A stretch of 64,000 nt of DNA, taken from positions 3,425,001 to 3,489,000 of the forward strand of contig JAZBRI010000008.1 in NCBI GenBank assembly GCA_036874045.1. The letters are read 5' to 3'. A program made the translations under genes and the position numbers. The notes under the pieces are model-generated. The model was not told the DNA's origin. It did not search any database and was given only the letters and a program-made list of their open reading frames with translations. Positions 1 through 40,162 of the stretch are shown here, in pieces. Positions within the stretch are counted from its first letter, which is position 1. Each line of letters starts with the position of its first letter. The DNA is from Cymodocea nodosa. Taxonomy: Eukaryota; Streptophyta; Magnoliopsida; Alismatales; Cymodoceaceae.

Positions 1-419
1 TTCTTAACCACTCACAAACCTCCTAACAGATGACCTTTTCTATATCAATCCGATGCACCAATAAACCACTTTACAAATTACAATGATGAAAATCATAACA
101 CCATTGTCAAATTAGACTTCTTTTTTTGGCTTAATCAGTTTATAAAACTAAAAAGGAGATGATGATGAAGAAAGACTCCTTCCATGTGCAATTCTACAAA
201 AAAACCCACGCACTCACGTCATTCGTGTTTCATACAACAGAATCATAGTTTACTATCATAGCACCGAACCAACAATGCAAAATCGAATAACTTCATTTTC
301 AGGCCCAATCAAAGAATTCACATAGCAAAAAAAAAAGAAAGAATTTACATAGCAATCAAAATTTGCCAATTTTCAAAGAAAGAGATTAAATTTTAAAAAC
401 AAAAATCAGAATCGCCTAC

Positions 420-655
420 CCACCGGGTCTTTGGGGTTCGGAAGACGACGAACTTCCGATGTTGGGCGTGGGAGGAGAAGGAAGGCGCGCGGTCTCGGTG
501 GGTGGAGGGATGGATCTTGTCTGGCCGGTGATGAAGGCAAGACGATCGGACCCTCGCTCGAGGATCTTCCTGCGCCTCGTCTCCCTCGCGCCCTGCCCCG
601 CCGTCTGTGCCTTTGTGTTCGGGTTCGCTTCCTCCTCCGCCATCTCCACCTCCAA
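420..655 (-). CDS. GET2: Partial first exon of a GET2/CAML-like tail-anchored protein receptor subunit
   Basis: The reverse-strand frame starts at Met 655 (or at the in-frame Met four codons later) and runs about 79 codons. An acidic N terminus is followed by a basic cluster, RETRRRKILERGSDRLAFIT, then a Pro/Ser-rich linker. A short Arg-rich N-terminal motif of this kind is typical of GET2/CAML receptor subunits, including the divergent plant GET2, where it contacts the GET3 ATPase that delivers tail-anchored proteins to the ER membrane. Reading stops at a TAG that overlaps possible splice donors (GTGGGT at 423 or GTAGGC at 419), so this is read as exon 1. The C-terminal membrane segments expected of the family would lie left of the window. 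No membrane segment is visible here, so the family call rests on the basic motif alone. Confidence 0.5.
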
Positions 656-2648
656 GAATCGGCTTTCCAGCTCCCGCGATTGTTCCGCTTTGCCTTCTCT
701 GCTTAACAGAGTTGTTGGGTCGGGTTTCGGTTTTAATTGTAGGGTCGTAAATAAGATCCGGATAAATATCCGTTTCGGATTAAATATTTAAATGAGATTA
801 GAATATTCCGAGTTGTAAAATTTTATAACTTTTTATTCTACCTGATTGTTGTTCTTATTTCACGTCTATACTTCTTCTTTTTAATTTATCACGTAAAATA
901 GTAAATGAAGAAAAAAATATTTTTATTTTTTTAAATTTTATATTGCATTAAATGAATATTTAAATTACATAAAAATAAAAATGCGCAAGAAAATACGCAT
1001 AAGAAAAAAAAATTACAAGATGGTCAAAAAATTAAACTCCAAGATTTCAATCTTGGCAAAAAAAAGCCTCCTTACCCATAAGTTTAGTTGATAATTCATG
1101 ATTCATTAATTGATAATTATTGTAATAATCCCATATCGAGATAATGAACATGAAATTTATGATTAATATAGTGTCAATATCAATTGATTTTAAAATAAAA
1201 TATTTTACATAATATCAAAATAGTGTTAGATCTTTTAGAAAAATTTCTGTAAAAGTAAAGATAGAATTGAACTTATATATACAAGGAACACTTACATTTG
1301 TTATCAGTTAATTTTAAGTTATAATTTCAACATATTATTAGAAGTGGTTCAAGTGCATTTAATTCTCTATACTTAAAAGATGTAAACAAATCATAAGTGC
1401 AGAAAAACGTTAGAAAAGTACTACATTAAGAAAAGGAATTGAATTTTATATATGATAAACTCCTTCATTCATTTTTAATTAATTAGAAATCAGAAATTTC
1501 AACGGAATATTATACCTGATACTGATTAATTTTAATATAAAATATTTCATAATAACCATTATAAACGGTCCGCAGACGCTATTTATAATATTATGGTAAA
1601 AAATCTCATTAACAAACAAATGGGTGGGGGACTCCCTTCCCTTCCCTTCCCTTCTGCTCTCTTCCTTCTCTTGGTTCCCATCCAACGCAGACGACCCATG
1701 TGATGATCCCTTCCTCACTGTCAGCGCTGAGAAGGATAAACCATTGCAGATCACGCACCATCCAATGCACCACCATCATCTGAAGAGCGCGCTTATTTTT
1801 CTGACGATGAGACGAGGCTTTGTTTGCTTCCATTGGTTGACTGAGATCCAGAATTCCTCCTTAATCTTAAACATATCCATCCTGGTTTTGATGCTGCTCC
1901 ATATTTGTTCTGCACTATATCAACATGTGCACCTTTCAAAGTAAAACGGTAATAAATCTTCCTCTTCCCTTTCGATGATGGCAGCATTTACCAGCAGTAC
2001 TGCTGCCTCAAGCTTTCTTTCTGTAATCATGTTCTCTGTCTAATCCATGTTCTCTCTGCACCATACCCTTCAAGTGCAACAATACTTGTTTACGCACACA
2101 CGCACGCATGATGATGGTGAAGAAGAAGAAGAAGAAGATGACGACGACGACGACCCACAGATGCCACCAATTAATTCTATGGACTTATTGAGCTTCCAGC
2201 GTGCACGTCAATCAATCTCAGGAACTGCAATATTAGTCTAGAGCTTGTATGAAAAATGACTCCAGAGTCTTACAGGATAAACCAATTTACCGTTGGGGTA
2301 AGATGAACAAGAGTTAAAAAGCCGAGGATTGAAGGGTTGTAGCTGATCTGCAGATTCCTCTGAACTGAAGCCATAATTTTTGCTCATGCTGGCAGTTATG
2401 TTGCTGTCAGAAGATGATTATATTAATCCGGTGTGGTTAATAAGATAATGAGATGAGACATTGGCGGCATTTAACACACTGTGGACTTGTCTCCTCCCCC
2501 CCCCCATGCTCCGATCACAGTGAGCTGCCAACTTGCCACTGTTGGCAGCATTCTCCAGACAGCACACACCAAACCCATCGGCCATTAAAAAGTTGGGATC
2601 TTTTTTGATTACTCCACACTCCATCAATCGCCACCACCGCCGGGAACA
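656..2648. other. Intergenic region between divergent genes
   Basis: AT-rich spacer between the reverse-strand GET2-like exon and the forward gene at 2649, so it must hold both promoters. It contains a CCCTT-type pyrimidine repeat near 1637-1655, a GAA/GAC trinucleotide run near 2117-2153 and a C9 tract near 2497. Several open frames of 60-106 codons are low in complexity and match nothing I recognise. I see no RNA gene or transposon terminus. Confidence 0.5.
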
Positions 2649-3115
2649 ATGGAGATCGGAGAAAGAGCACCACAGTCGCACCGGACCGCCAGGAGCGACG
2701 GGGGAGGAGGAAAAGGAGGAGACTTGTTCATCTGCTTCACGTCAAGAAGAAAGCCCATGAAGCTGAGAAACAGCGGCGGCACCAAAGGTACAGGATGCGG
2801 ACGATCACCGGCCACGTTCACCTCCAACACCGCCGAACCGTCCTCTCCGAAGGTGTCGTGCATTGGTCAAGTCCGGGTCAAGGCCTCCCGCAGGAGAAGG
2901 AAGACGGCGGCGGGGGGGTCGGTGTCGGCGATGAAGTCGAGGAGCAGGAGTGGGAGCTTCAGGAGAGCGGAGGAGAGGAGCCGGAACCAGAGCTGGGTGC
3001 ACCTGCCACTTGGAGTGGTGTGTGACGCCCTGAGGAACATCGGATCCGAGGTGAATTGTTGCTTCAGGATGAGGAGGCCTTGCTGTGGCGGGATGAGGAG
3101 GCCTTGCTGTGGTGG

Positions 3116-3146
<31 letters not shown>

Positions 3147-4427
3147 AGGAGCTGGTGGAGGTGCTGCTTGTGGAGGAAGAAAGAAGTGATGGTGAATGAG
3201 GTGGCGGGGGGGAGCAGGAGGAGTAGGGGGAATCGACTCGAGCTGGTTGCCGATGAGCTGCAGCGAGAACTCACCTTTCAGAAGAGAAAGAACGTCGACA
3301 TCGAAGACGAACCTCCAGCTCCTTGTGTTCCACCCAAGAATGCTTTGCTGCTGATGAGGTACGGATCTGATCCTTCTAGGGTTTCTGCTCTCCAGAGTAG
3401 ATTCAGGGTCGAAGAAGTTGACGTTGGCGGTGGTGACGAACATCCAACTGAAGAAGAAGATGAGGAGATCAAAATGATGGAGGCCCGGAGAGATGAGAAG
3501 GAGAGAGAAGACAAAGTGAGGTTTTGGCAGGAGGAGTTGGTGAATGATGCAAACTTGCGAAATGGTTCCACGTCGGAAAGCATGAACGCCTATGCTGCTA
3601 CTAGTGGTGATGGGGAGAACAGAGGAGAGGAGAAGAAGGAAGTTGAAGTGATGGCAATGGAAGAGGAGGAGGAGGAGGAGGAGGAGGAGGAGGAGGAGGA
3701 GAAGACGAAGAAGATGAAGAGTGTAGTGGTGGAAGAGGGAGGGAGGAGAAGCACGGGGAAGGATGGAGAGAGGAGGAGGAGCATCTCGAAGGAGAAGGTG
3801 ACGAGGACGACGTCGTACAGGGAGGGAAGGAGGTCAAGCTTCTCATCGGAGGGAGAGGCGAGGAGGTCAAGCTTCTCAGCGGAGAAAGAGGCCAAGAGGA
3901 GGTGGAGCTTCTCCTCGGAGAAGGAGTCGAAGGCGATCGCTCCGGCCGGGCAGATCTCAACGGCGAAAAAGGAGAAGAACGACTTGCCCGAATGCCTCTT
4001 GCTGATGATGTATGAACCCAAATTGTCGATGGAGGTGTCCAAGGAGACGTGGGTCTGCACAGCCGATTTTCTGCGGTGGCAGCCGAATCGCCGACGGCAA
4101 CAGCACAACGACCGAGAGAAAGCGAAGGCAGGGGTACAAGAAGACGCGGCGGCGGCGGAGGACAATAAGGTTCATGCGAGTGACGGTGAAAATGAGAAAC
4201 CAGACACCGATTCCGTCGCTAAATCACCAGCACGGGTCGCCGAGCCGAAGAACGGAGGAGGAAGCGAGGTGGGCGGGAAGGGTGTAACAGCGGCGGCGGT
4301 GCCTTTTGCATTGACACGGTGTAAGTCGGAGCCGACGAGGGTGGTGTCCTCGTCGTCGTCGTCCTCCGATGGATGTTTCTGGAAGAGCACGCCTCGGCTT
4401 ACCGGCGTGGCTGGGATCGGCTTCTGA
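2649..4427 (+). CDS. Intronless plant-specific acidic protein of unknown function
   Basis: A 592-codon single-exon gene ending in TGA at 4425-4427. Ordered blocks are typical of a plant-only family often annotated as uncharacterised or glutamic acid-rich: DLFICFTSRRKP (~25-36), SPKVSCIGQVRVK (~66-78), a PPKNALLLMR block (~228-237) leading to SRFRVEE, a LLLMMYEPKLSMEVSKETWV block (~450-469), and a C-terminal LTRCKSEP motif (~554-561). Between them lie a Cys/Arg stretch with a duplicated MRRPCCGG unit (~141-158), a poly-Glu run (~338-351) coded by a GAG microsatellite, and three Ser-rich repeats (RRSSFS type, ~394-424). There is no signal peptide or membrane segment. Base composition is much richer in G+C than the flanks. 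Function is not known; conservation of the blocks makes this a real gene. Large antisense open frames over it are shadows of its GA-rich codons. Confidence 0.8.
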
Positions 4428-5734
4428 GCGGCTCTGCTTTGGTTCGGCTTGTTTTTTTTTTTTTTTTTTTTTTTTTTGAAAAAAAACGTGGTTCTGTTTT
4501 TGCTTAGATCTGAATAGAAAAGATCTTGTCCTTTATATCCAAGAGTAATGGCCAATTAGTGAGCAGCTTTGGTTTGTTATTTATGGTGTTTTTTCTTTAA
4601 GAGAGAGAGAGAGAGAGAGAGGAAACAGTGGTTAGGGTTTTAAGGTTTATATTTGGAAAAATGTCAATATTTGGATTAATAAGAATAAGAAGGGCAAATT
4701 TTAAATTTTCATGGGTTTGCTATTTTTTTTATAATGACAATGACTTTGTTTTTAAAAAATAACAGAAAAAATGAAACTCTAAACTGTCAAAGTAAAAATT
4801 ATTGTAAATGTTCATTCTATGATATAAGTACGTTAAAATTTATGTTTTCTTTATAAATATTTATTTTAAATATAATTTTTTTTATTGATGGATTTTAAAT
4901 TGACATATTTAATTATAATTGTCTACGGTAACATTGAACCCAAAAAATAAAATAGCTTTTACCAGGTAGCGATGAAGAGGTGGGGTTAAAAGCTTGAGAT
5001 CCATCAGCCTTTTACTTACCCCTTGTACATGGTAACGAAGGAGAAGGTGAGTCTTCGCAATAATCTGTCCATTCAACCAGTGCTTGGAAATATTCAAATT
5101 CTTCCGAATAGAACAAGTCAATGTTGGTCGAGATCCCCTCTTCTCTCTTTTTTTTTTAATTTTTACGGGATTGTAAAACATTTGGATGTTTACGGCATCA
5201 AAAATCGAATCAGACATTGAAGGTAATTGATGGAATGTGAAAACGCCAGTTTCATATCATAATATTGATCCATCGATCACAGCTTGCATCTGTACATCAT
5301 GAAGTTGACTAAATTCCTTCTCTAATCTTCTGATTGTTCGACGAACAGGGTCAATGCAAGACATCTTAATCATTTTGTCAAGTGATTTTTCAAAAGATGT
5401 GAATGCATCAAACAAGAAAAAGAATCCTTTAGGGAGTTTTTGTTTGGATAATATTGAAACTAATGCACCACCGAAGTTTTGATGGTTAAGCTTGCATTGG
5501 TTGGCGCCAGCTGAATTGTGCGCAGCAAAGCCCGGGAAGACGAAAGGGACATGGACAGAGACAAGGAAAAGGAGTTGCAGACCATTAACTTCTTGCATGT
5601 CAAGTGACCGTTCTTCTTCCCCTGCTTTCCTTTTTATTCCATTTCTGACTTCCTCCGCTTTTTCTGAATTTCCTACCCTTTCTCCTTTTTCTCCAGCTTA
5701 AGTTACTGCCTGGATTTGCTGATGTATCGTGGGA
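4428..5734. other. Intergenic spacer with poly-T and GA microsatellite
   Basis: The 3' side of the 2649 gene has a T tract near 4451-4477 and a (GA)n run near 4601-4621 and is otherwise AT-rich. A pyrimidine-rich stretch near 5620-5699 ending CTCCAG looks like a splice acceptor tract, possibly of a 5' UTR intron belonging to the following myosin-tail gene. Confidence 0.4.
5257..5598 (-). other. Unrecognised 113-codon open frame, possible gene fragment
   Basis: The reverse-strand frame begins with a hydrophobic segment (residues ~7-26) followed by a mixed, non-repetitive sequence containing FEKSLDKMIKMS and DPVRRTIRRLEKEFSQL. The composition looks protein-like rather than low-complexity, so it could be a remnant exon, but I do not recognise the family and no splice-linked neighbours are obvious. 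It overlaps the presumed 5' region of the headless myosin gene on the other strand. Confidence 0.2.
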
Positions 5735-5794
5735 ATGGAAGGTTTGATCAAATGTGTGTCTTGGATTCATGTGCTGGTGGATGATAACCCAGTG
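5735..5794 (+). other. Candidate 5' coding exon of the headless myosin gene
   Basis: After a CTCCAG acceptor at about 5699, an ATG at 5735 opens 20 codons that end at a GTTAGT donor (5795) in phase 0, matching the phase-0 first myosin-tail exon at 6530. The encoded peptide (MEGLIKCVSWIHVLVDD...) does not resemble any part of myosin. If real, it is a newly recruited start that would give a protein of about 539 residues. This is inference from splice phase only. Confidence 0.3.
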
Positions 5795-6529
5795 GTTAGT
5801 CCCCCCTCTTTTTTTGTTTCTCTTGTATTTCTGTGGAATTTCCTCCCTTTCGTCTTCTGGGCCTTTCAGTAGATGACTTGTTGGATTAATCTTTGTTGAT
5901 GCATGTGCAGACTATTTTTCCTTGTTTAAGGCATCTTGTGTTTGTAGGCCAATTATTTTGTTGTTTCTTGTTTATATATGCTTTTCTTCTTCTTGTCTTG
6001 ACTTCTAAGTTCGGATTGTCTCCTTCTGACCTCCACTTTGGGAGAGTTTATGTTGGTGTGCCTGTGCAAATCGAAAAATATTTTTTGTTTGTTTAGAATA
6101 TCTAGTGTTTGAAAAACTATTGTTTGTTTGTTTTAGCTTATCTGAGCCTCTCCAGATGAAAAGTAGCATGATGATCATGATGGCTGCCATGTATGTAATT
6201 GTTGACTCAAATATGCAATTTTCGGTATTGTAATTGTTGAGCTTTTGGTTATAAACATAGAATTGATTTATTGTATCCATATCGCTTGGCTATAGGGTAT
6301 TGAATGGCGAATTCCTATTTTTATGCTCCTTCCATGCTTTTAACTTTGCACTAGTTTTTTGTACTATAGGTATGTTTTTTAATATCAACATGTATATTTT
6401 AATTTTACCAGTGGACATCATGAAAAGAATTTATTTTCTTATGTTTTCCTTCTAATGCCCATTTGAATATCAATATTAGCATTTGGATTCGGTTCATTCA
6501 TTGACTTTGTATGTGTTCATTGTCGACAG

Positions 6530-9500
6530 GCTAAATTACTTGCTCACAAAGATTATACACATGAGCAACGATTACAGAAGTCAGCAATCACTTGTCAACG
6601 TACTTGGAGAAGATGTATTGCAAGAAGAAAACTCAAAATCCTGAAATCGGTAGAAAAGATTACTAGAGACAAATTAGATTTTCCTTCCACTAAACAATGT
6701 TTATGAAACCTGGACTCATATCAGTGTTCCACATTAGGCTGCAAAAGAGGAAACAGTAGAAAAGCTTGAAAACAAAGTGGAGGACTTGGAGAGGCAATTG
6801 CAAATGGAGAAGAAACTAAGGGTAACTGAGTGCTATTTTTTAAAAAGAAACCTTCCTTGTTCAAGATGCCATAATTGGTGATAAGTGAAAGTGATTGTTG
6901 AGATTGTAGAATGAATTGGAAGTGTCAACAGAGCATGAAAGAGGATTACTGCTGGAAGCTCTGCATGGGATGCAACTTGAAATTGAAGAGGCCAACAATG
7001 TGCTTGATAGGGACATCGAAAAGATTGGCTTATTGAATGCAGAAATTGAAAGCTTGAAGGTACTGCTTTTTCAATTGCAAACTAATTGGAAGTAATTGCT
7101 TTTCAATGCTAGTCGTATTTTGTGTCCACTTCAAGCCTAGCAATTAGGTACCATAATGTGTGATCGTCACATCATCAATTCTTCAAAGTTTGTTCAATGT
7201 GGCAGTTTTCAGTGCTAATTCAACACATTATGATCTAAGCGCTAAATTTTATTTTTCTGATCTTGCAGGAAATGGTAATGCTAGAGCAACTTTCCTCAAC
7301 TGCAGCACTACAAACTTATGTTGAACTAGAGGACATGATTGCAGAATTGGTGCTACAAGAAAAGGATTTGGCCAGCCGAGCTGTACAAGTTCATATTGAA
7401 CTGCAGGAAAATAATTGTAACCTGGTCAATAAAATTCAAGATGCAGAGGAAAGAGTCCAAGAGTTTCAAGATTATGTTCAGAGGTTTGCACTACTTTACT
7501 AAATATTATTATAATTGGACTTAAAATTCATACATGGAAGTAAATTTGTGGTACTGAACCAATGAGGGGTACATGAAGCTGATCATATGATTTTGTTGTT
7601 TCTTGCTTATTACAGTCTTAAAGAAAGGTTGCTGAGGTTAGAGGCTGAGAAATACCATCTTCGTTGTGGATCATTTGAAGTACAAAAGACAAGTGATTTT
7701 CACCATATTATACAAAAGATTAGTACTTCTGTTGAGGTATAGACAAATTCCAGTTAGTATAAATTGCTCTTATGTCTTTTTCAAGGTTCTCAATTATCCA
7801 CAATTGCTACCGGCAAACTTGTCATTTGTCATGTCATTCATTACCTATATTCTAAAGTCCACACACATACTGATATACGGAGTATTTTTTTTCCAAGGCT
7901 CAAGAGGACAAGGGTCTATTATGCTATTGGTTATCCAACTCGGCAATGTTGTTGTTGCTCCTGCAATGCACATTGAAAGCAACTGAAGCAACCTGTAATG
8001 AATCTCCAAGCCAGAGACGTTCATTTTCATTCATTGGGAAATTATTTAGTGTAATCAACTATCTGCCTACTTTTGTCTTTTCCATTTAAGCTTCTCTTTT
8101 TAGATTTCATCATCAAGTATTTCTAATTTAAAAATTTCCAGGGATTTCATTTGGCTGCTGAAAATTCTGACTCTTCACATTCGGTCTTTGGAAGATCTGG
8201 TGAAATATGCCAAACTGATGATGAATATCCAGCTTCACTATTCAAGGAACAACTTACAGATTTCATTGAGAAGGTTTATGCTATGATTAGGGACAATATA
8301 AAGGCAGAGATACAGCCATTGCTACAACAATGTGTTCAGGTAACATAAGTTAGAAACGATATGTTAGATATAGGAGTATTTATTATCCTCTTGTTAAATG
8401 GGTTATTGGATATCCTTTTACTCTTAGATACTCCACCCATTATATATATACTTTTGCAACCCTAATTTGAGGTGAATGCTAATTTTCTCCCACAACACTA
8501 TAGTTTCGTATAAATCTTTTTGAATGGTGGTGAATAAATTGTTTCTGACATTGACACTATACAATCATATAAAGGTACACATTCTTATAGAAGGATAGAA
8601 ATGCCGACTTGTTTAAATTTCAGAAATACATAAAAAATATCACGAATCGCAAGCTATAAAATAAAACATATAATGTCATTTGTAGCCAATAAGATTCTGA
8701 GTTTCCTTCATCAATTTATCATGATTAGTTGACTTTTTGTAAGGTTACAATGATCATGACCTCAATTTCAAAAGCTAAAATGTTATCAGTATGTCAAATT
8801 TAAGGAGAATGTATGTGAGAATGGACTAAAGGATTGATTTGTGGTTTGTAGAATCTAAAATCATTAATATTATTTTTAGAGGACATGGAAGTTTTCAATG
8901 AAGACAATTAAGTCTGTAGCACCGTTCAGGTAAGATCACTTCTTCATTTTCCTTATGATGTAGGCTCCAAAATCATCTCTAGGAAGTTTGATGAAAGTAG
9001 CACCTACTCATTGGCAAAAGATTGTGAAGATTCTGCACAACAACTTGACAACAATGAGAATCAACTATGTAAGCCTCTTTAGCTCCCAACTATAATTCTA
9101 TGTCTTTTGGCTTAGGAATTTCTCCTCAAGCAATTTATATTTCAATCTGACAATATTTGAAATTCTTTGTCAAATTTTCTGTGCATGTCAGGATAACCTT
9201 TTTCACTCATCCATTATTCTTTTAGGTACCACCATTTCTAGTTCGGAAGATGTTTGGCCAAATCTTCTCCTTCATCAATACTCAACTTTTCAATGGGTTT
9301 GTCATCCATCAATATAGATAGATGCTAATTATGATATATGTTGGCATGTTTTCATAATTAAATTTTGGAGCAGTGAAGTTTGTTCTTGCCGAACTTTTCC
9401 AGTCTCTTTTCGCAACATGAAGCTTGCACATCAGTCAACAGTGAATTTTTAAAGGAAGGTTTGTCTGAGTTGGAGAACTGGTGTGATGATGCAACACAAG

Positions 9501-10510
9501 TGGTAAGTGTTGGAAAATCTATCTCAATATTATAGCCACCTCTTTGAATTTGTACCTAGATATTTTTCCTTTTTCAGTATGCATCTGGAGTTATGGAAGA
9601 GTTGAAACGTCTTCGACAAGCAGTTGCCTTTTTGGTATGCTTTTTATCTAACATTTGAAAATCTAACTCAAAATCATTTAATTATGAGTGGAGAGATCTT
9701 TAGATTTCATTGTATATATAAGTATAGTGCCCATATTTTGGCATGCGAAACTATTCCAATACTCTACTTCACTTGTAAAATCTTTTGGGTTGTACAACAT
9801 GAACTTATTTTTGGATATGACGGATGTATGAGGAATTGGACCTAGTAGAATATATTTTGCTCTAATACCATATTGAAATTTAAACATGTAAGTTAAAATC
9901 AATTGATTGTGAAGGAAGAGTCTTTCTTTGTTTACATGCAAGTCCAATTCTCATTTTTCTAAGGTGAGACTATTCTAGTGACATTGAATCATTGAACATC
10001 ATTTTCCCATCTTTGTTATAGACAATCCACAATTTTACAAATCAATCAAGGATTTTCGTCCTATCAATGCATCATCTTCATTTTCATTCATTCTGACAAA
10101 TCCCCATTTGTCTTCTTCCAAAATTATCTTCTAATTGTCTGTGCCCTCCGCCAGGAGCTCAACATACAAGGGTTGAGTAAAGTGAGTAATACAGACAAAG
10201 TGTACCATCGGAGCAGCTCTAGAGAAGTAGGATAGTCTATATCTTCATCTGATTTGCTTTCTCATCTTCTTCTTAATTGCTAAGAAATTCATTTTACTCA
10301 GCAGTCTTCAGCTAAGAAAACTTTGACAAGAGTGGACACAAAAGCTAGACAACTTTTCTTGCAGGATGATGATACAAGGTATGTCTTCTTGGTAGAATAA
10401 TTTTTTTTCCTTCATGTTCCAATGGTCTTTGCATCATTCCAGTGACCTTCCCCTCCTGTTTATGTAGCATACCATTCTCGGTGGATGACATCTCCCATTC
10501 AAGGACATAG
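6530..10510 (+). CDS. Headless myosin XI: tail-only gene (last IQ, coiled coil, dilute/globular tail)
   Basis: Fourteen exons join without a stop or frameshift: 6530-6649, 6738-6821, 6910-7059, 7269-7483, 7616-7736, 7898-8050, 8142-8339, 8964-9068, 9226-9296, 9403-9499, 9578-9634, 10155-10226, 10305-10378, 10468-10510 (1,560 nt, TAG at the end). They correspond in order to exons 22-39 of the full-length myosin at 12120-25229, and several have identical lengths (120, 153, 71, 97 and 57 nt). Content: an IQ-like segment (CQRTWRRCIARRKL), coiled coil, then the globular tail with [18 protein letters not shown] and LRQAVAFL. No motor exon precedes it. The fifth exon fuses the end of the coiled coil straight to a FEVQKTSDF block, dropping the equivalents of exons 27 and 28 and most of 29; exon 36 is also missing and the C terminus is shorter. 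Without a motor it cannot move on actin; it could act as a cargo-binding competitor or be a decaying copy. The 5' start is unresolved. Confidence 0.75.
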
Positions 10511-12119
10511 GAAACAATGTTAAATCTGATATTGAGGTTCCATCACATATTCAAGGATTCGTGTTTCTCATGCAGCATTTAGATTGGATTTTTGAAGGCT
10601 TGATTCAACTCCATTGTATCAATTGATGTTTTAAGTATTTCTGTGGCGAGGGAATTTATTTTTTGTAAATTATTAGGCATCTTTGTTTTGCCTTGTAGTC
10701 TTAAATTATCTTGTTGATATTGTATATTGTTGTTGTTGATTCAGCATATGCCATATGCGGATTTTGGGATATGCTGTGATTAATAATAAGATTGTAGGGT
10801 ATGCTGATGATTGGAAACTTTTGAATTTTTTTTTGAGGTCATCATTTTTCTTCAATCCTAAGACAGTGATTCTTGTTTATATTTGGAGTAAGTCCACAAA
10901 ATTGAAACAATGTTGGTTGTGAAATTTGTACAATGCTCTCTTCGTGCATAAATTTAAAAAAAATGAAAAATACTGATTCTGCAGTTGTTGGCCAGTCATG
11001 CATGTTTCTTTGTCAATAATTGAGATACAATATTTGTTTAAAATTGTAAACAAAAGGGAAAGTCGACATCAATTTCTCAACTGAATTCAATATAGAAATT
11101 ATAAATGAATATTTAATCAATTAAAACCTTGTCCACTAAAGCCATATCATTCCATGAATGTTCTGTGGATGCACATGCAGAATTGCAATTTGAATTCTGA
11201 GTTCACATTTAGAATTATCTAATTTGGCACTGCATTTTTTTCATATTCCCGAAAAATAACAATATGCAACGACCTTCTATGAACACAAAATGCATTTCTG
11301 TAAAAACAATACTAACTCATCTTTAGGCTGAACAAGTATCATGTGATATTATTTATGAGAATACCAAGCATGTTTTTTAAATGCCACATGCCCAAGTGAT
11401 TGCTTCAACATTTTCATGCATGTCATTGCAGACAAGAGGTATTTGTTTCTTGCAAGACAGTTCTTTTTAAAATCGAGAAACGGATGCAAAATGTTTCTTT
11501 AATAATATTGAGAAGGATCTATATTGAATGTGTGTATATGTGTCATTAACCATATAATATATATTTAAAGTGACAACCTTTGACCATGTTTTAAAGAACT
11601 TTAAATTATTTGATAGTTTCATTTTACTAATGTCGACCATTTTCTTAAGAATGCATGAGCAATATAAAATTTATTGTTTAAGGTCAAACCATCGCTAAAA
11701 GCTCATTCATCCAATCATCATGATCATCAAAGTGATGAGAATAATCAAGACATCAGAATACTAATTTCAAGTTGGACCAAGTAGAATATGTTATATCAAG
11801 GCCAACTCTATCATTTTTATGACGTGAGAAGGGCTTTTATGAAAATAATAAACATTTCTTTGAAACATGGTGTACAGGACATCATCTTTGTGAAGACCAC
11901 TAAGTGCAAGAGAGAGAGAGAGAGAGAGATGAAGATGAGGAGTGTAGAGAGAGAAGGGTCATAGAGAGAGGAAATGATTGTGAAATAGAGTAGGACCTTC
12001 TTTCTTATTTCTTCTTCTTCTTTTTTTTCTTCTTCTTCTTCTTCTTCTTCTTCTTCTTCTTTAGTCTTTTCATTCCTCCTCCTATCGAAAATCATCCTCC
12101 AAGTTTCCCCAAACAAGAA
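10511..12119 (+). promoter_or_regulatory. Promoter and 5' UTR region of the full-length myosin gene
   Basis: AT-rich spacer between the headless gene's stop codon and the start codon of the full-length gene. A (GA)n run at about 11908-11929 is followed by a long (TTC)n tract at about 12003-12061, less than 60 nt before the ATG, so the 5' UTR is probably pyrimidine-rich. No TATA position can be fixed without transcript data. Confidence 0.4.
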
Positions 12120-15100
12120 ATGGTAAGTTTCTTATTCTTCTTTTTCATGTTGTATGGGAACATTGAGTTTATCATTTGAAGTATCATGGACTTCAGTGGT
12201 TGTGAAGGAATTGTTAATCATTTTTTAAAATTTGTTTCGTATTTATCATGTCGTTCATCTATTGATGGAAGCCATGGACCCCAATTACTAGCGAAGGAAT
12301 CATATTCGTTGATTTTTGTTTATGTGTACCATGAGTTTGATGGCAGTTCTTTCTGCTATTAGCATATTGAATTATATAGTTTTTTTGTAAATCCCAATGA
12401 TGTGGGTTTATTTCTATAATACTCTTTGGGACAAGGTAACCAATGACAAAATCCTAGTTTGGAAAATTCAATCAGATACTCTCTTGTGCTTATCCAACCT
12501 ACATTGGTTATTGTTAGACAAATCTTTTTTTATTGGTTTTGATTATGTAAAACTTGATGATAAATATGAAATGATTTGTGTAGATTAAGTTTATTGTAGG
12601 ATATATAAATAAGTAAGACCAAGTAAGATTATAAACAAGGAAAATCAAAGAAGATCATCAAGGAAGCAAAGCTAAGGATCATAAATAAGAAAAATTAAAG
12701 ATCAATAGATGAAGATCATAAATAAGAAAAATTAAAGATCAATAGATGAAGATCAGGCAAAGAAAAAAGGACTTCGGACATTACACTTTATTACTTTCAT
12801 AAGGACTTGTATTATTGATGTATTTTGGGTTATCAAGTCTTAAGATGATCTCTAATATCCTCATATATGACACTTAAGAGTTCATATATACATTTAGAAA
12901 AACTGTTTAAAGTAATATAAATTGGAGTCCAACTTAGCATTTTCTCTGCTACAAAATTAGCATATCATTTTCTCGTAATTGGTATACCATTTAGTAAGCC
13001 AAGACTATAGTTCAACTCTAGAACAAAAATGGTATACTAGGTTTTTAAACCAATATACTGTTTTTGGATTAGAAGTGTAGCTGCTCTCTAGAGAAAAATG
13101 GTATACCAATTTTGCTACAGAGTGTTAAGCCATTTAAAAATGGCATACTATTTCACCTAATGATATACCAAATCATTTGACTATTAGACTCAATAGCATA
13201 CTGAATGATAAAATAGCATACCAATTTACCAGCCATTAAAAGAAATTTCTATTCGATACATATGCACTTATAGGCCACCAATCCCTAGATATGCACCTCC
13301 ATTGGCAACAAATTTCACAACAACTACTACAATCTCTTATTCTCTTTTATCCTATGTTATCACTCTTTCAGAGCAAAATTTACTTCTCCACTCTCCCACA
13401 AAGCACCACTAGCATCAGGAGCACTCATTGAAGAATCACTAGCATCAATCAAGTAAAAAGCAAGTGATCTGAAGCTTTTATGGTTGTAAGCAAAATACTA
13501 ACTTATCTCATCAAATTGTAGTGATGACTCTTTAGATTATGAGGAGGGAGAGCTTGGTGGTACACCAAGGACCTTGTGAACAATGGGGTTTGGCTTGTAA
13601 CAACGTCAAAATTAATGTACTGGGTTAAGTATAATACTTGAAGAGTAGACATAGTCTAGGTTGCAAGTGAACCACCATAACTTTAATTATAGTTTTTTGG
13701 TGTGGACTTTTGACTCTCTTTTATTCAGTTTCTTATTTTTATTGCATTACACTTATTGCATAAATTTGACGTATTTTTTATTTGTAGTTAAAATTAATTC
13801 ACTCTTTACTATTTACCCCTACTAGTAAAGTCAAACTATCCTAACAGTTATATTTTAAAAGCATGACAACTTCATTCTTGTTAGAGGATATATCTTAAAT
13901 AGTGTGTTGGGTAATTCTCCATTATAGCTTAGTTCAAAATTCATTCATGTCAAGGGATACATCTTATCTTCTGTATTCCTACTTTCAAATGATTCCCCTT
14001 TCATTCGACTTACATATTTATTCTGGAATATTTCTTCAGTAAAGTCCTTATTTCCCTTATCAAGTTTATTAAGGAAATGTTCCTAGGATCCTTTATTCTT
14101 TCATGTTCTTCTTCTCTTTTTACTCCTTTGTGTTCATGAGAAAGGATACAACTGTATTAAATATTTGATGATGTTTACCAACAAAGGTTTCATCTTTGAT
14201 TTATTTTCTCTTGAAACTTAATATAACAACTTTCCTTATTCTGATAAAAAAAGTAATTGGTCCTCATTGCTTTTGTAGTCCACTCCAGTCTACATTGTTG
14301 TGGGCTCTCAAGTGTGGATAGAGGATCCAGATTTTGCTTGGACAAGTGGAGAGGTTCTAAGTATTGATGGGACTAACATTCATGTGCAAACTTCTGATGG
14401 AAGAATGGTAGGTACTACAAATCTTTTTTCATCACATTTTGTTTATAATGAAATAATTAGAAAAGTTTATCAAATTGCATAGTTATAATTTATAACTTAT
14501 AAATTAGAGCTTTGTTACTTCTGGAATCATGCCCTTTTCTAATCACAAATACTTCAAAGTTTAATCATGGTGTAGGTTGTTATGTGTAAATTTGAGATAG
14601 GAAACAAGATGGGAAGAGTATTGACTCCTTCTGTATGGTGTAGAATTTTAGTTTACCACACCATTTGGTCTTCAATTATTATATGATATAATTGATTTGT
14701 CATGTTTATTGAGTATGGTAGGTTTGAGCAGCAATATTTTCTGTTGTAGTTAGTCAAGTATGGATATCTTAATATACATGATTATCAACCCATGTTCTCA
14801 AAAGAAAATAAGTCTAACGGTATGTCACAAAGTACAGCCTTGATGGCATTCGTATTTGCAATAATGCAAACATTTTTCTTACTTTACGACCCCCTCATGA
14901 GTGTAACCAAATGATATGGAAGTGACTTTTAGAAATTCTATATGTTAAAAATATGGAAGACATTGGGACTAGTTGGAAAAGGAAATTGAACCATAGATTA
15001 ATGGATAAGTATTTTCAGTGTCAATAAATATAGAAGAAGTTATATGACATTGTGGCAGTGCATTGAGCAGTGAAATTTAATTTTAGTCTCTAACTTTCTA

Positions 15101-18100
15101 CATCCATATAAATATGGAGTTGAATGAGCTTGAACAATGCTTCTGTGCAGGTCATTGCAGACTTGGCAACCACTTGTCCAAAAGATATTGAAGCATCACC
15201 AGGAGGCGTTGATGACATGACAAAGTTATCATATTTGCATGAACCTGGAGTTTTACATAACCTGGCCAGTAGATATGAATTAAATGAAATATATGTAATG
15301 TGACTATCATTGACATTTTTGAAGGGATACTTGCTAGGAAGAACGAACTTCTCTAAATATATTGCACTTTTTACATAACCTGGCCAGTAGATATGAAATA
15401 CATGTTATGTGCTTATCATTAACACTTTTGAAGGGATTCTTTTGAAGAAGCATGAACTTCTCTAAACATATATTGCATGCACACTCTACAACAAGGATTC
15501 TCCAATATTCCTTTCCAACACATCCACAACTAGGGTTCTCCAATATTCCTTTCGAACACATCATGTAACACATTTAAGGTATTTTTAGCAAAAAAATCAC
15601 TTAAAAACATTACAAACTTGCTAGGAACACACATGGATTTTAAAGGACAGTTTACTTACACAGTACTAAACTAATATATGATAGCTCTTCTGATAATTTT
15701 TATGTACATTTTATTGTTACAGTATCATGGCACGTATATATTGTATAGCTATTTGTTGTCATTCAAAAGTGTTATTATAAATATTTAAATAATATTTTTA
15801 AACATATTATTCATTTAATGTTGTATCTAAGTCAAGTTGTATTCTAAATTTTAGAAAATTATCAAATCTCTGATTCTGAATTTTGTTGTATCCAAATCCC
15901 CAAATCGTATCAGTGCTTCCTATGATTCTTGTTTCTTGTAAGATTAATATTTTGAAAAAACTACTTTCCAGACATACACTGGCAATATTTTGATTGCAAT
16001 AAACCCATTCCAAAGGCTACCTTATCTATATGATCAGCATATGATGGAACAATACAAAGGTACAACCTTGGGGGAGCTGAGTCCTCATGTTTTTTCTGTT
16101 GCAGATGCTGCATACAGGTATTTTTTTTGAAAACCTTATGATGTATGCTAACTTCTATATGTGTCTAAACTAATATGGCATACAAGTAGGGCAATGATGA
16201 ATGAAGGAAGAAACAATTCAGTCTTGGTTAGTGGAGAAAGTGGCGCTGGTAAAACTGAGACAACAAAAATGCTTATGAGATATCTTGCTTACATAGGTGG
16301 TCATTCTGAATCAGAAGGAATAACAATTGAGCAAAAAGTGCTGGAAGTAAGTTGAAGAAATCTAACTTGGTTAGTTCCCATTTTATTCATTTCCTTCACT
16401 GAAGTTCTTCATCTTCTGTGATTTTTTAGTTAATATTTCATTTCATATTCAATACAGTCAAATCCAATTCTTGAAGCATTTGGCAATGCCAAAACTATTC
16501 GAAATAATAACTCTAGGTAAGTAATTGAAGCAATTTTGCTGATTTTCTTCCAAAAGCATGGTCAAATGCAGACTTTGAAGCATTAACTTCTAGTTTTAGT
16601 TATTGATATGCTGCCTACATATCTAAGTTTTCCTTGATACAGCCAAATGTTGAAGTATTGACTCTCTCTTTTCCCCACCATGTACAAATTTGAAGTCGTT
16701 TTGGAAAATTTGTTGAGATACATTTTGACAATAAGGGAAGGATATCTGGGGCGGCCATAAGGACTTACTTGCTTGAAAGGTCTCGTGTTTGCCAAATCAA
16801 TAATCCTGAAAGAAACTATCATTGTTTCTATTTTCTTTGTGCAGCACCACCTGAGGTACATGAAATTCAATACTAGTATTCTCTCTTCCTTGATTAACCT
16901 TGGAATATGGATATGTAATTATTACAATATGTTGTCAGGATATTGTGAATTACAAAATTGGGCATCCTAGTGACTTCCATTATCTCAATCAGTCTATCTG
17001 CTATGAATTGCACAGTTCAAGTGATGCTAAAGAATATCTTGCCACTAAAAAGGCCATGGATACTGTTGGGATGAGTGGACAAGAACAGGTTGGTAAGTCA
17101 TTCATGTTCATCAGAAAAGATAATAAAGATATTTTGTTGCATTTGAGCATCAAAACATGAAAATTATAAGTTTCAGGAGGCAATTTTCAGAGTTATTGCT
17201 GCCATCCTCCATCTTGGAAACATCGATTTTGCAAAAGGAAAAGAGGCTGATTCTTCTGTTATCAAGGATGAGAAGTCAAGATACCATCTTGAGATCACAG
17301 CTGAATTACTTATGTATGTTCTATGTTTCATTTAGAACCAACATACATAGATATTATACCAACTATTTCGCAAGATATTTTGGTTACCTTCCCTTTGAAG
17401 TTGACTCTTTGGTAGGTGTAATGCTGAAGATTTGGAACATGCATTAATTAAACGTGTGATGGTAACACGAGATGAAATTATTACGAAAGCACTTGACCCT
17501 GCATCTGCCACTGTTAGCAGGGATGGTATAGCAAAGACTATATATTCTCGTTTATTTGATTGGTGAGATTCCTACGTCTTTGGTCTGAGGTTAAACCTAT
17601 GAATTATTGCTTTAAACTGAAAAGATGCTCCACCTATTTTTACATAATAGTCTAGTTTATGACTATATTATGACATCTACAGGCTGGTAGATAAAATAAA
17701 TGTTTCAATTGGACAGGATGCAAATAAAAAGTCATTGATTGGCGTTCTTGATATTTATGGTTTTGAAAGCTTTAAGACCAATAGGCAAGTCATTGTTGAC
17801 AAAGTCAATATTTCCAAGTTGTCTTTATTCATGAAATTTATTCATGTTGAAAATTGCATCTTTGGAAACAGTTTTGAACAACTTTGCATCAATCTTACAA
17901 ATGAGAAGCTTCAGCAGCATTTCAACCAGGTTTATTAGTCCAATGAAAATGATATGCTCTCAATTGGAATGATTGTTGTTAAATAGTTTTGATTTTTTGT
18001 ATCAAAATACAGCATGTTTTCAAAATGGAGCAGGAGGAATATGCAAAGGAGGAAATAAATTGGAGTTACATTGATTTTGTTGACAATAAAGATGTGTTAG

Positions 18101-21100
18101 ACCTTATAGAGAAGGTATTTAGCATATCATAGCATATTTTCCTGTGAAAAGTTTTATTTAATTATTTTGCACTTTCTACAAGACTACAAGTTGCTTCTAA
18201 GACAAGCCACTCTATAAATTCACAATATAGCAAAAACTGATATAATTGATGATTAAAAATGACATAAAAATATCAATGTATACAAAAGTAAAGATGTAGA
18301 AAATGATGAAATAGATGGAGGACAAAACACTCCCCAATCTTTAAACCATAAATATAATATAATAATTAATTAATTTTAAAAAAAGTATTTGCATTTGCGC
18401 TACTTTGATTCATTGTCTCATATGCCATACATGGATTTATTTTATTTTATATTAGTAGATTAATAAGGACATTAATTCCCTTTGCAGAAACCTGGAGGAC
18501 TTATATCACTTCTTGATGAAGCATGGTATGCATGTATGAGACTTTGATTTCTTTTGAAATCCATGATTTTTATGGATCTTTCATTACTCGCAAAATCTTA
18601 TAGATTTTCATAAACTTTCTTATTTAAGAAGTTGTCCTCTACAAGTAGAAAATAGCTTTCTCAACTTTCTTACTATTGATTTATGCATATACTGTAGCAT
18701 GTTTCCGAAGTCAACACATGAAACATTTGCCCAGAAGTTATATTATACATTCAAAAATAACAAGAGGTTTGTCAAGCCAAAGCTTTCACCCACCGATTTT
18801 ACTATTCTTCACTATGCAGGGAAGGTAAGCACAGTGACATTGTTATAACATTAATCATTTTCTGTGATGGTTTACATCTAACCATACCCTTTCTGATCAT
18901 TCTGTACAGGTAACATATCAGACAGATTACTTTTTAGAAAAGAATAAAGATTTTGTTGTACCGGAACACAATGAATTATTGAATGCTTCAAAATGCCCAT
19001 TTATATCCAGTTTATTTCCACCACTTCCATTGGGTTCAAAAAAGTCCTCTAAGTTCTCATCAATTGGTTCACGCTTTAAAGTTAGTATTTTTCTATCTCC
19101 ACTTTTTTGTTCATAGTTTATTTAATTTGAAATAGGATACATAAAGTCTGAGTTGCATAATATTCATCATGTGTATTTGTCTTTTGAAAAGGACAACATA
19201 AAAGAAAACATTGCAACTACAATGTTCTTTATCTAGAGAACAGACACTTGATTTAGAACTTGATCAATATGCTTCTTTGTGAATTAATGCTTATGTAACA
19301 TCATATTCCAGCTTCAACTTGCAGCACTAATGGAGACTCTAGGCACAACAAAGCCTCATTATATTAGATGTGTGAAGCCAAATAATGTTCTTAAACCAGT
19401 TATCTTTGAGAATGTTAATGTTGTCCAACAGTTGCGTTGTGCTGTAAGTACTGACCATTTTGAAACATGCATATTTTTCTTCAGGAATGCATGTTGTCCT
19501 TTTACACATGTTTTTATAGTTCATCATTTGAGTAGGGTGTTCTTGAAGCAATAAGGATAAGTTGTGCTGGATATCCTACTCGAAGGTCATTTTATGACTT
19601 CCTTCATCGCTTTAGGGTTCTTGCACCACAACATGTAGAAGGAGAGTAAGTTTTATATAGTTTCATTTTTGGAAAGAAATTATGTGACTTCAGGTTCATC
19701 ATTCAAGTGCTTGATTATAAAATTTATTTTGGATATTGTGTTAACAAGCAGGTATGATGACAAGATTGCTTGTCAAAAAATTTTGGAAGAAGTAGGATTG
19801 CAAGGATATCAGGTATCCTAAATTTCCATTAAATTAATTTTTCAATGGCATGCAATAAAATGGTATTGCGCTATGGTTGTTGATGATGGTGACATATGAG
19901 TATATTGCAATTTGTGAATTACTAACTAAAAGAGACCATGTACATGTCTTCATAATAATCTAATTTTGGATTATTGTGTTTGCTTTCAATAGTTATGTTG
20001 TATTATGTTTATCTCTAAAATAGTTGCTACAATTGTTATTTTAGTCATTTCATGATGTCAATTATGGATATGCTTGATAGATAGGAAATACTAAGATCTT
20101 TTTGAGAGCTGGCCAGACGGCATTGTTAGATGCAAGAAGAGCAGTAATATTAGGAAAAACAGCAAAGGCTATTCAAAGACAAATTCGTACACACATTGCT
20201 CGTAACAAATTCCTTGTATTGCGCAATGCAACAATTCTTTTGCAGTCTTTTTGTAGAGGTATATTCCTATTGGATGATTAGTTTATAGAAAATATATTTA
20301 CAGAAATATGTATTAATTAAGTTTTTATAATGTTCTTACTATAAACAAGTTCTTTAACTGGACTAGTTCATTTCCCCAATTGCTTACCATAAAAAGCTTT
20401 GTAGTGGTCTCATTTCATGCTACCTATATTATAGGTAGATTGGCTTGCAAATTGTTTATGAGCATGAGAAGGGAAGCATCAGCAATAATGATTCAGAAGA
20501 ATCATCGATATCATGTTGCCAACAATTCCTACATCATGCTTCGATCACATGCTATAACATTACAGACAGGTCTGAGAAGAATTGCTGCTCACAATGAATT
20601 TAGATTTAGAAAGCAAACAAGAGCGGCCCTTATTATTGAGGTAATTGCCTTTACCACCAGAACTTTCTTTTGTCTAAGAGCAAATCTAATGTGCAGCACC
20701 CTTAGTGGGCCCAAGAAAATTTTATTGTATGTAGTCTTACCTCAGCAAGTATAGAGGTTGTTTCCTAACAATAAAATTGGCTTAATTGTTTATTATAGTG
20801 CTTTATTTATTTGTCTTTCATGTATTTTTAAATTTAAGGAACATTTTCTGATATTTGATCCTTTTTCTGTTGTGCGTGGTATTGGCATATAGACTAAGTG
20901 GCGTTGTCATAGAGAATATTCATACTACAGGAATCTGCAAAGGGCAACACTTACTTGTCAATGTGCATGGAGACAAAGAATTGCAAAAGGAGAATTAAGA
21001 AAATTACAAATGGTATTTTGCTATTTTGATAAATCTTCTCTCATTGAAAACTCATTTAAAGGTTTATGCATAATAATCTCTTTCATTTTATCATTTTTAG

Positions 21101-24100
21101 GCTGCAAAAGAAGTAGGTGCTCTCCAGGAAGCAAAAGACAAACTAGAAAAGCATGTGGTGGAATTAACTCAGCAGTTGCAATTGGAGAAAAGATCAAGAG
21201 TAAACACAAATCCTTCCTAAGAGAAATAATATTTTCATGTCTTTTATATTAACTCATTGGCTACGTTCAATATTAACAGTTACCTTAAAATGTAGGCTGA
21301 TTTGGAAGAGGCAAGAGCAAGAGATGTAGCTAAACTGGAGGAGGCATTGTATATGATGCAGCTACAAGTTGAAAAAACTAATAAAATGGTTCATGAAACT
21401 CCTATTTTGGTTGAAGACACGCAAAAGATTTCTTCACTAACTACAGAAATTGACAACTTAAAGGTATACCAATGAATAAAAACATTTAAGTGTTATTTCT
21501 TTGCTATACTAGATAAAATAGCAAGATCAATATTCTATGAAACAGCAATGTTCTGTATGTCCACTGATGATTGTTGATTTAGGCAGTACGCTTGAATTGA
21601 ATATTTTACTCTATAGAGTTGTGCCATTGATGTAGAAAATACCTATCATCGTTTCATTACCTTCTACTTAAATGCTTTCTAATCATATTGGATGTGTTTG
21701 AGTAGAAATTTTGCTTTGTTATGATTCTTATGAGGCTTGAAGCCAGTTAAGTAACAAACTATTAACCACTAAGTATGACTTTCAATTAATGTCAACATCA
21801 TTATAAAAATTTTACAATTTCATGAACTCCATATGACAGCATTATTCTTTAATGGAAATGTGAGTTCTCAAAATTTACCTCGATTTTTATGGAATATGTA
21901 GCAATCATATCATTTTTACAACTTATCCAATTGGAATGGATGAATTTTTATTCCATTTATTTAAAATTCTTTAATGTGACTGTCTTGATCTGTATCATAC
22001 TTTTCGATGTGAAAGGAATTGTTGATCCAGGAAAAGAACTCCACAAGTGCAGCCCTACAAGCCTATGAAGGACTACAAGATAAAAATAAGAAACTAATCA
22101 AAAAACTTGAATATGCAAGGAAGAAAATTGATCAGATTCAGGATTATGTTCAAAGGTTCCTAACACTATACAATAATTATTTGCTTATCATTTACTAAAA
22201 CCTTGCACGTTTTAGTTATTTTAGCACTTTCATGTGAAACAAGTTCTTTAAGATTCTCTTGTTTCTTATCCTTATTAGCTTCAAAGAAGATATATCCAAC
22301 TTAGAATCAAAAAACCAAGTACTTCATCAACAAACTATTTCATTGTCAGAGCAACTTAAATCAGCTCTTGAACAGGTACTGTTTTTAACATGCTATTTTT
22401 CTTTGTTTTAAAAGAAACTGGTCCATTGGATTTATTTTCAAATAATTTTTTTTTTTGTTATTTCACATTTTGTTTCAGATAATACTACTTGAAAATGCAA
22501 ATCGTAATGATCAATCAAAGATAAATACTGTGAGTACACATTTTTCTAATAATTTTTTATGTGCACTTTTTAAATTGATTTTTAAAAGGATTTTTATATT
22601 TTCATTACATTACTTGATATTATATTGTAGATTTCAAGACCTTCATTATCTTACCTTAAAAAAGAGGGTGGACTAAGGTCACAAGTATCACTTAATAAGA
22701 GACAACAAGTAATTTTGCTTTTGTGGCAATTTCTTTACAATTGAAATATGTTTTTCTAAGTATTTCTCTACATGCATTTCACTTCATTAATCTAAATTAT
22801 CGTTTTTTAATTTTTACAGGAGGACTTGCTTATCAAATCCATCTCAAAGGATATTGGATATTCTGATGGAAGGCCGATTGCTGCATGTATCATATATAAA
22901 TCTCTTCTTCAAGGGGGGATACTTGAACATAGAACAAGTTTTTTTGATCGTATCATTCAAACAATTGGCTCTTCTATTAACGATGTAATGAAATTTCCCT
23001 TGTTCATTTTATAACCTTACATCATATAGACAAATTATTTCTTGTTGGCATTACTAATGTAGTGTATTATTCCCTTTACAAGGCCCAAGAGGATAATAAT
23101 GGTCTATGTTATTGGCTATCAAATTCATCCTTACTATTGTTACTTCTACAACATACATTGAAAGTAAGTGGAGCAGCACATATGGCTATCCATAGGATGG
23201 TATCAACTTCATCTCACTCGAGGAAATTACCTCATGTATGATGATTGCTTCCCTTAATATTTTTTGTTGGACTTTTATCAATTTGGGAACAGGAAGTACT
23301 TTCATTTTTTGCATTTAATTTATGTTTCTTTATGAATTATATCCAGAGATCATACTCTTCATCACTTGTTGGTGATCAGGTGGGGACCAGAAATAATGAG
23401 AAAGATCAAGTTGAAGCTAAGTATCCAGCATTACTTTTCAAGCAGCAGCTTACAGCTTTCCTCGAGAAAATTTATTTAATAATAAGAGAAAATTTGAAGA
23501 AAGATATATCCTCATTCCTAGCACATTGTGTCCAGGTACCTCTGGAGGTAGTATTTTTGTCATGTCATAAAATAAATAATGTTGGTCTTTACTACTTTAA
23601 AGGCCGACATATTAAAGCTGTGTATATTATGCTTTTTTTACTTTCTTTCCTTATATATGATTCACTGGGAGAGACAGGAAGTGTTTTGACATGAATACAC
23701 AACTTAAACATACTTTTAGAAGAACTCTAATATTTCTTTATAGTGTAGGCTCCAAGAGTATTTCAAGCAAAAAGAGTGAGATCACGTTCTCGTGTGAAGA
23801 CTATTGAACAACAAGCTTCGACAACTCCTTGGCAGGGTATTATTAGTATCCTAGATAATTACTTGGAGACAATGAATGCTAATTATGTAAGTCCTCCTTT
23901 TAAAATCTCCTTCTCATTCAGTCATGGAACTAAAGTAGATTTTCCATGCAAATATGATTACATTGGTCCATTCATGACATTGAAGCATCCCTGTTGTCTA
24001 GTATATGAAGAAATTCAGTTTATATATACCTTATCATAATTTATGGTTGAGTTCCTACCTTACTGTTTTCTTATGCCTGACAATCGTTTAGGTTCCTCCA

Positions 24101-30274: not shown

Positions 30275-30284
30275 CTTCTCCCAT
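30275..30284 (-). other. Polypurine tract of the retrotransposon
   Basis: The reverse strand reads ATGGGAGAAG immediately before the LTR start TGTTTAGAATG. This is the expected plus-strand priming site. A second purine tract (GGTATGGGGGGGAGG, 31576-31590) lies about 1.3 kb further inside. Confidence 0.7.
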
Positions 30285-38472: not shown

Positions 38473-38478
38473 ATCTCC

Positions 38479-38958
38479 TTAATACTCTAAAAAGTCTATG
38501 GTATGTAAGGACATTTCTAACTCCTCAAACCTTTCTGGTTTAAAAATATTTAATTGAGTATCCTCATTACCATATGCTAACTTCATTACTCCAGTTTTAC
38601 AATTTATAACAGCCCCTGATGTTGCTAAAAATGGTCTTCCCAAAATTAAAGATGTATCACTATTTTTATGCTTAATTTGTTGGGAATCCAAAATTACAAT
38701 ATCAATAGGATATATAAAATTCTTGATTTTAATTAAGACATCCTCTTTTTTTCCTCTAGGGTATCTTATACTTCTATCAGCCAATTGAATAACCGTACTA
38801 GTAGGAGTTAAGCCTTCTAATCCTAAGGATGCAAATATATCACTTGGCATAACATTTATACCTGCACCTAAGTCTATTAAGGTTCTTTCTAAAATGGTAT
38901 TTCTTATGGTGCATGATATAACAGGGATTCCAGGATCAGATAACTTTTTAGGAATTTA
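38479..38958 (-). pseudogene. Retrotransposon aspartic protease
   Basis: The frame contains the active-site block LIDLGAGINVMP (minus strand, just above 38850) and the downstream ILGRPFLATSGAVI motif of retroviral-type pepsin-like proteases. It is in the same frame as gag and RT but is bounded by stop codons near 38958 and at 38479-38481, so no mature polyprotein could be made. Confidence 0.8.
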
Positions 38959-40140: not shown

Positions 40141-40162
40141 TTCAGTTCAATTCAATTCAATT

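Follow-up and report, generated by a model that had tools for sequence, protein, structure and literature searches.

Headless Class XI Myosins and Motorless Tails in Plants

Two types of headless plant myosin have been described, 11E2 in Arabidopsis thaliana and 11E4 in all Poales (PMC3850447). The Arabidopsis gene, also called HDK or Myo11E2, is a partial duplicate of XI-K (11E) that consists of tail exons only and stands in tandem with its parent. It is a recent copy (72% identity) with no IQ motif and two new 5′ exons; it kept the coiled coil and the DIL region but has lost the ‘unique region’ encoded by exons 27 and 28. It is expressed and reportedly has no discernible phenotype (PMC3850447). 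A headless copy in Eutrema, whose 5′ end is undefined, was judged most probably a pseudogene in the same work. The Poales gene Myo11E4 is a headless monocot tail of XI-K type, strongly diverged from its parent (48%); it carries three IQ motifs and a 40-residue N-terminal extension, has lost the first part of the coil, and is reportedly not in tandem with 11E3 (PMC3850447).

Motorless tails are also known in other forms. Rice Os01g40200 is called Headless, and a short transcript of maize O1 comprises the coiled coil and DIL region without the motor (PMC3935558). Engineered myosin XI tail constructs, likewise motorless, are dominant negative and block the movement of organelles and P-bodies (PMC8153422). 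Searches of open-licence papers turned up no headless class XI gene beyond Brassicales and Poales.

The locus described here lies in a stretch of 64,000 nt (the window) of plant nuclear DNA. It contains a headless myosin tail gene, gene A (6530-10510, plus strand, 14 exons, recognised by homology to the tail of B), and, 1.6 kb downstream on the same strand, a full-length XI-K-like myosin gene, gene B (12120-25229, 39 exons, 1497 aa). Like Myo11E2, gene A is a partial XI-K duplicate in tandem, built of tail exons only, and it has no counterparts of B exons 27 and 28, a parallel loss if both 39-exon genes are numbered alike. Unlike Myo11E2, it is old (46% identity to B), has kept one IQ motif, and its globular tail is reduced at both ends. 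This tandem likeness is one of arrangement, not of shared descent. With Myo11E4, gene A has in common that it is a headless XI-K-type monocot tail strongly diverged from its parent, whereas the loss of the first coil part and the reported location away from 11E3 set the Poales gene apart, as may its three IQ motifs and N-terminal extension. The grass headless sequences aligned here, unlike A, have a full globular tail, and on the whole tail they did not group with A; these grass proteins of 744-792 aa and rice Os01g40200 presumably represent Myo11E4. Maize O1 differs in that its headless form is an alternative transcript of a full gene and not a separate gene, while the engineered constructs differ in having an intact globular tail and in being overexpressed.

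Gene A is a real headless XI-K gene of an already published kind, unusual in its age and apparent independence. We consider it somewhat probable (about 0.55) that A is an old motorless tandem copy of the ancestor of B, long protein-coding, whose product is a non-motile tail that damps or redirects XI-K motors.

The Full-Length Neighbour

Gene B is complete, running from an ATG at 12120 to a TAA at 25229 without internal stops, and the DIYGFE motif is in place. The best PDB match of its tail is Myosin-17 (E 3.5e-138), and the named entries among 120 relatives listed are mostly myosin-17. Both the relation to XI-K and the tandem order with a complete myosin downstream, as given in the original prediction, are thus borne out. 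The best relatives of B reach about 67% identity overall. Its motor is 77-79% identical to the XI-K motors of Elaeis, Zostera, Vitis and Dioscorea, whereas the Dioscorea motor is 88-93% identical to the other three, which marks B as fast-evolving. Part of a conserved coil hinge has also been lost in B.

Further downstream, 20 exons (931 aa, open) were traced of part of a gene for UDP-glucose:glycoprotein glucosyltransferase (UGGT; 45578-63634, plus strand), which has large introns and whose best relatives are only 62% identical. With UGGT at that level, an unsampled and fairly fast lineage would explain part of the divergence of B, and for the same reason the absence of orthologues of A says little.

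Exon Structure of Gene A

The 14 exons of A, with GT/AG borders, join into 521 stop-free codons followed by TAG. The borders were chosen to follow the frame, and they coincide with those of B. One-to-one pairing with B exons holds for 12 of the 14, five of them equal in length and seven differing by multiples of three, with matching phases; the exceptions are exon 5, which is a fusion, and the last exon. Intron positions and phases are therefore shared with the full-length gene. Aligned with the tail of B over 631 columns, gene A is 35% identical (306 bits, E 1e-95), so the homology is not due to chance. The encoded content is the last IQ motif, a coiled coil, and a reduced globular tail with a DIL core, a coiled-coil and DIL tail homologous to XI-K in which the globular tail is incomplete. 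The Pfam DIL profile (PF01843) matches A with 51 bits against a cut-off of 24 and covers 80 of its 105 positions. A visual reading and homology to B identify the IQ motif in exon 1, and no Pfam IQ match was obtained in A or in the tail of B.

Exon 1 (6530-6649) encodes this last IQ motif and the start of the coil, and has the 120 nt and the phase of B exon 22 (20893-21012). The coiled coil continues through exon 2 (6738-6821; B exon 23 is longer by 15 nt), exon 3 (6910-7059; the site of a deletion common to A and B) and exon 4 (7269-7483), which exceeds B exon 25 (22016-22155) by 75 nt. By eye, the extra 75 nt seemingly represent an old internal duplication of 25 residues. In exon 5 (7616-7736), the start of B exon 26 (22279-22375) is fused to the end of B exon 29 (22820-22984), so that the linker exons 27 and 28 are gone, as are the first helices of the globular tail. 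The globular tail follows in exon 6 (7898-8050; 153 nt, as B exon 30), exon 7 (8142-8339; B exon 31 is shorter by 9 nt) and exon 8 (8964-9068; B exon 32 is longer by 33 nt), and reaches the DIL core in exon 9 (9226-9296; 71 nt, as B exon 33), which extends over exon 10 (9403-9502; 100 nt, as B exon 34) and exon 11 (9578-9634; 57 nt, as B exon 35). A counterpart of B exon 36 (24569-24625) is absent after exon 11. Exon 12 (10155-10226; B exon 37 is longer by 9 nt) and exon 13 (10302-10378; B exon 38 is longer by 6 nt) form a degenerate C-terminal part of the globular tail, and exon 14 (10468-10510) ends in TAG after IPFSVDDISHSRT. All these exons lie on the plus strand. When the A introns, including 7484-7897, were searched for B exons 27, 28 and 36, no remnant exceeded the level of shuffled sequences.

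The Missing Motor and the 5′ End

No motor domain is encoded by the exons of A or found in 1-6529. A tblastn search of the window with B as query, allowing E up to 1, gave no match below 6545. When 19 B exons (14279-20258) were aligned with 4440-6529, with 30 shuffles each, none stood clearly beyond the shuffles; one exon scored 24 against a shuffle maximum of 23. The motorless architecture expected from the initial reading of the locus was confirmed in this respect. The preceding IQ exon of B (20435-20640) likewise shows no resemblance beyond shuffles in 4440-6529. As to the three IQ motifs of Poales Myo11E4, the exons found in A hold one.

No in-frame ATG was found in exon 1. A speculative 5′ exon could lie at 5735-5793 (plus strand), where an ATG opens 20 codons that end in phase 0 before a GT; the basis for this candidate is its open frame together with a donor site that is weak (4 of 7 positions). 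The missing start codon would fit the idea that A belongs, as the tail, to a full gene with its motor in another place, through misassembly, trans-splicing or unseen exons. We regard this as very improbable: no homology to the motor turned up in 1-6529, the open frame at 2649-4427 is unrelated, and the adjoining neighbour is complete. That frame, on the plus strand, is intronless and comprises 592 codons; it is GC-rich and Arg/Glu-rich and carries simple repeats. A resemblance of the region upstream of A to the promoter or tail region of B was rejected, as only short matches were obtained (best E 0.085 and 0.013, respectively).

The C-Terminal End and the Reduced Globular Tail

Directly after the TAG of A, at 10511-10600 on the plus strand, an out-of-frame remnant of the class XI C-terminus can be read, SDIEVPSHIQGFVFL. 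It matches the conserved pattern SDIE.P..I...GF.FL, and for each of three references 0 of 500 shuffles reached its score. Since the C-terminus can still be read past the TAG, but out of frame, the last exon of A has undergone a frameshift that cut it off; this frameshift may be of recent date, may be tolerated, or may stem from a sequencing error. B matches the crystallised XI-K tail (7kfl, 395 residues) as far as residue 392 of the latter, just short of the C-terminal end. The change therefore appears, on sequence grounds, to remove only the C-terminal extension past the end of the crystallised tail, and it looks recent.

Against a model of a canonical tail (P0002; mean pLDDT 68; best PDB match XI-K 7kfl, TM 0.90 on target), A is without the C-terminal helix and those predicted at 288-308, 320-331 and 609-616, has kept the helices between 342 and 601 apart from a portion of 490-521, and is degenerate at 622-657. 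At invariant tail positions, A has kept 41 of 53 and B 50 of 53. Yeast class V tails have a C-terminus that folds back onto the start of the domain (PMC3850447), and for this reason the loss of both globular-tail ends in A may be read as linked. The heptad score of the A coil, a crude home-made measure, is as high as that of B.

Age and Selection

The duplication is old, with a pairwise dS between A and B of about 1.1 (1.06 by ML, 1.24-1.26 by NG86, 0.75 by LWL85); this dS is near saturation, and all selection statistics come from A and B alone and depend on exon borders chosen to follow the frame. The comparison of the tail with its paralogue, proposed at the outset as a check, gave by NG86 a dN of 0.42 and an omega of 0.33 (0.22-0.45), with higher pairwise values by other estimators (0.44 by ML, 0.51 by LWL85). 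Identity over aligned codons is 46%. In a simulation that let A drift neutrally and held B at an assumed omega of 0.25 (d 0.4-0.62), the NG86 omega would be 0.52-0.54 and the identity 0.38-0.25, compared with the 0.46 observed, and an omega of about 0.5-0.7 for A itself fits that identity. Constraint is uneven along the gene: the best-kept segment is the middle of the globular tail (omega interval 0.08-0.41, with 102 of 500 bootstraps undefined), and the last 60 residues are poorly constrained (0.20-0.93). Under neutrality (d 0.53, 486 codons), about 27 stops would be expected in A and none is observed. These statistics suggest that A has evolved fast but not neutrally, under weak purifying selection for most of its history.

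The original prediction had argued from an open frame of 519 codons against a neutral old pseudogene. The argument is upheld by the missing stops and the NG86 omega; the frame itself stands with 521 codons, qualified by the 3′ frameshift and by an exon 1 that lacks an in-frame ATG. A related explanation is that A was once a functional headless gene and turned into a pseudogene recently. The frameshift ahead of a still recognisable but decaying C-terminus, the first exon without a start codon and the long branch of A all point that way, and the Eutrema copy, with its undefined 5′ end, is a precedent (PMC3850447). However, no stops and no frameshifts occur upstream of the last exon, although a neutral drift of just 0.05 substitutions per site gives about 5 stops (P(0)=0.01, 400 simulations), and the frameshift could be tolerated or a sequencing error. 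We consider recent pseudogenization unlikely, yet the most serious of the competing explanations.

Gene A could also act as RNA or DNA, as a transcript or as a promoter element of B, and not as protein. Such a role has been argued for the short transcript of maize O1, where immunoblots did not detect the predicted headless protein (PMC3935558), but the codon-level constraint and the kept frame of A make such a role improbable.

Origin of Gene A

A search with A among proteins of 0.55-1.75 times its length (7997 scored) brought up 75 with E no higher than 0.001, many of them grass proteins that look headless and are about 750-790 aa long; no close orthologue of A was among the 75 (at most 47% identity over the matched part). 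In whole-tail trees built under a site-heterogeneous model, with few non-K class XI sequences, A and B are sisters with support of 99/97 (38 rows) and 98/94 (36 rows). Their branches are both long (1.7 for A and 0.73 for B in the 38-row tree), so attraction is possible.

A deletion in the coiled coil is common to both genes: 24 conserved columns are lost in A and 18 in B, from the same start. The deleted stretch, the conserved KEREAARKAIEEAPP, is filled in 20 reference XI-K sequences, in a headless-looking Platanthera sequence and in the four grass headless sequences printed; the Zostera XI-K sequence is one residue short there and otherwise filled. At conserved columns changed in both members of a pair, A and B show the same residue at 19 of 59, compared with 2 of 28 for A and the grass headless proteins and 9 of 71 for A and Platanthera; the remaining pairs gave 9/39 (B and grass headless), 15/77 (B and Platanthera) and 9/57 (Platanthera and grass headless).

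Orthology of A to the Poales headless myosins, by one old monocot origin, would agree with their similar overall architecture. On the whole tail, a grouping of A with the grass headless sequences is rejected (AU p 0.0007), while on the globular tail alone, where no starred branch supports the joining of A and B, it is not (p 0.123). When B and Platanthera are left out, gene A has no firm place in the tree, and the grass headless proteins likewise stand away from grass XI-K, on weak branches. Elsewhere, grass headless proteins stand beside grass XI-K (96/92 in the 38-row tree, 98/93 in another), and the deletion shared by A and B is absent from the grass sequences examined. A common origin with the grass genes is disfavoured, and we find it improbable. 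The sister relation, the shared deletion and the whole-tail rejection together favour an independent birth of a headless XI-K gene within the lineage of this plant, as had been suggested; the phylogeny of the globular tail proposed with that suggestion joined A to B and left the alternative at p 0.12.

The Platanthera guangdongensis protein (P0059) is a headless, very diverged orchid XI-K-like tail of 702 aa on a branch of about 2, and possibly represents a further headless origin or a gene-model fragment. Constrained groupings gave p 0.044 for A with Platanthera, 0.006 for all headless sequences together, 0.056 for Platanthera with grass headless, and 0.25 for Platanthera with orchid XI-K.

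Among the grasses, the headless Eleusine coracana protein P0033 and the full-length XI-K P0112 have near-consecutive locus tags (QOZ80_1AG0022080 and QOZ80_1AG0022100) and longest contigs of equal length, and are probably close together, although Poales headless genes were reported not to be in tandem with 11E3 (PMC3850447). In the 16 grass headless proteins checked, part of the N-terminal extension is moderately hydrophobic (Kyte-Doolittle maximum of 0.55-1.54 over 19 residues), a possible membrane anchor.

What a Motorless Tail Might Do

The history best matching the preferred reading, an old protein-coding tandem copy, would begin with an XI-K-type ancestor of B in which the coiled-coil deletion came first and which was then duplicated in tandem. 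Within the lineage of this plant, gene A would next have shed the motor together with most of the neck exons, and would have lived mostly as a protein-coding gene under weak purifying selection, as the A-B statistics indicate. Its predicted product, one IQ motif, a coiled coil and a reduced globular tail with a DIL core, could pair through the coiled coil or bind a subset of tail partners, and in this manner might damp or redirect its neighbour B or other XI-K motors.

Myosin XI tail fragments can form unproductive dimers, compete for cargo sites or inhibit motors. Competition by the globular tail is favoured, as overexpressed coiled coils alone have a weak effect, the dominant-negative effect coming mainly from the globular tail (PMC8153422). 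The free globular tail inhibits constructs of the myosin XI MYA2 with a Ki of 0.5-0.8 uM (PMC8873201). Since the globular tail of A is cut at both ends, it is a poor candidate for plain cargo competition; the proposal that it competes for cargo receptors is weakened accordingly, although the DIL core is kept. What the constraint pattern leaves is probably either coiled-coil pairing or a DIL core that binds a subset of partners. Positions of XI-K residues said to couple tail and motor were set aside, because the numbers gave the expected residues inconsistently in six related proteins.

If the preferred reading is true, A adds an independent, old and long-kept headless XI-K gene beyond Brassicales and Poales, the groups named in PMC3850447, and the recurrent birth of motorless XI-K tails becomes a testable pattern. 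As its frame survived a dS near 1, A offers a natural case for what a myosin tail does without a motor, a question that the Arabidopsis copy, reported to have no discernible phenotype (PMC3850447), leaves unanswered. A broader and rather doubtful proposal is that XI-K myosins have repeatedly shed motorless tails, often adjoining their parents (in Arabidopsis relatives, Poales, this lineage and perhaps orchids), and that the two tandem copies here, both evolving fast over a long period, have become a pair of motor and non-motor, the reduced tail acting by coiled-coil pairing and not by cargo competition.

Other Features of the Window

Ancestral synteny of XI-K and UGGT was considered and set aside, as the named matches lie on different chromosomes in Eleusine (1A and 2B, which differ in subgenome too) and Asparagus (C06 and C10). 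In a quick 17-row tree, the UGGT falls with monocots (97), beside Wolffia (76), on a long branch. Between B and this gene lies a repeat nest (27992-43194, about 28-43 kb), in which blocks of 289 and 300 nt occur three times, spaced about 12.2 kb and 2.5 kb and 81-96% alike; by eye, it resembles a minus-strand LTR retroelement with a partial second copy.
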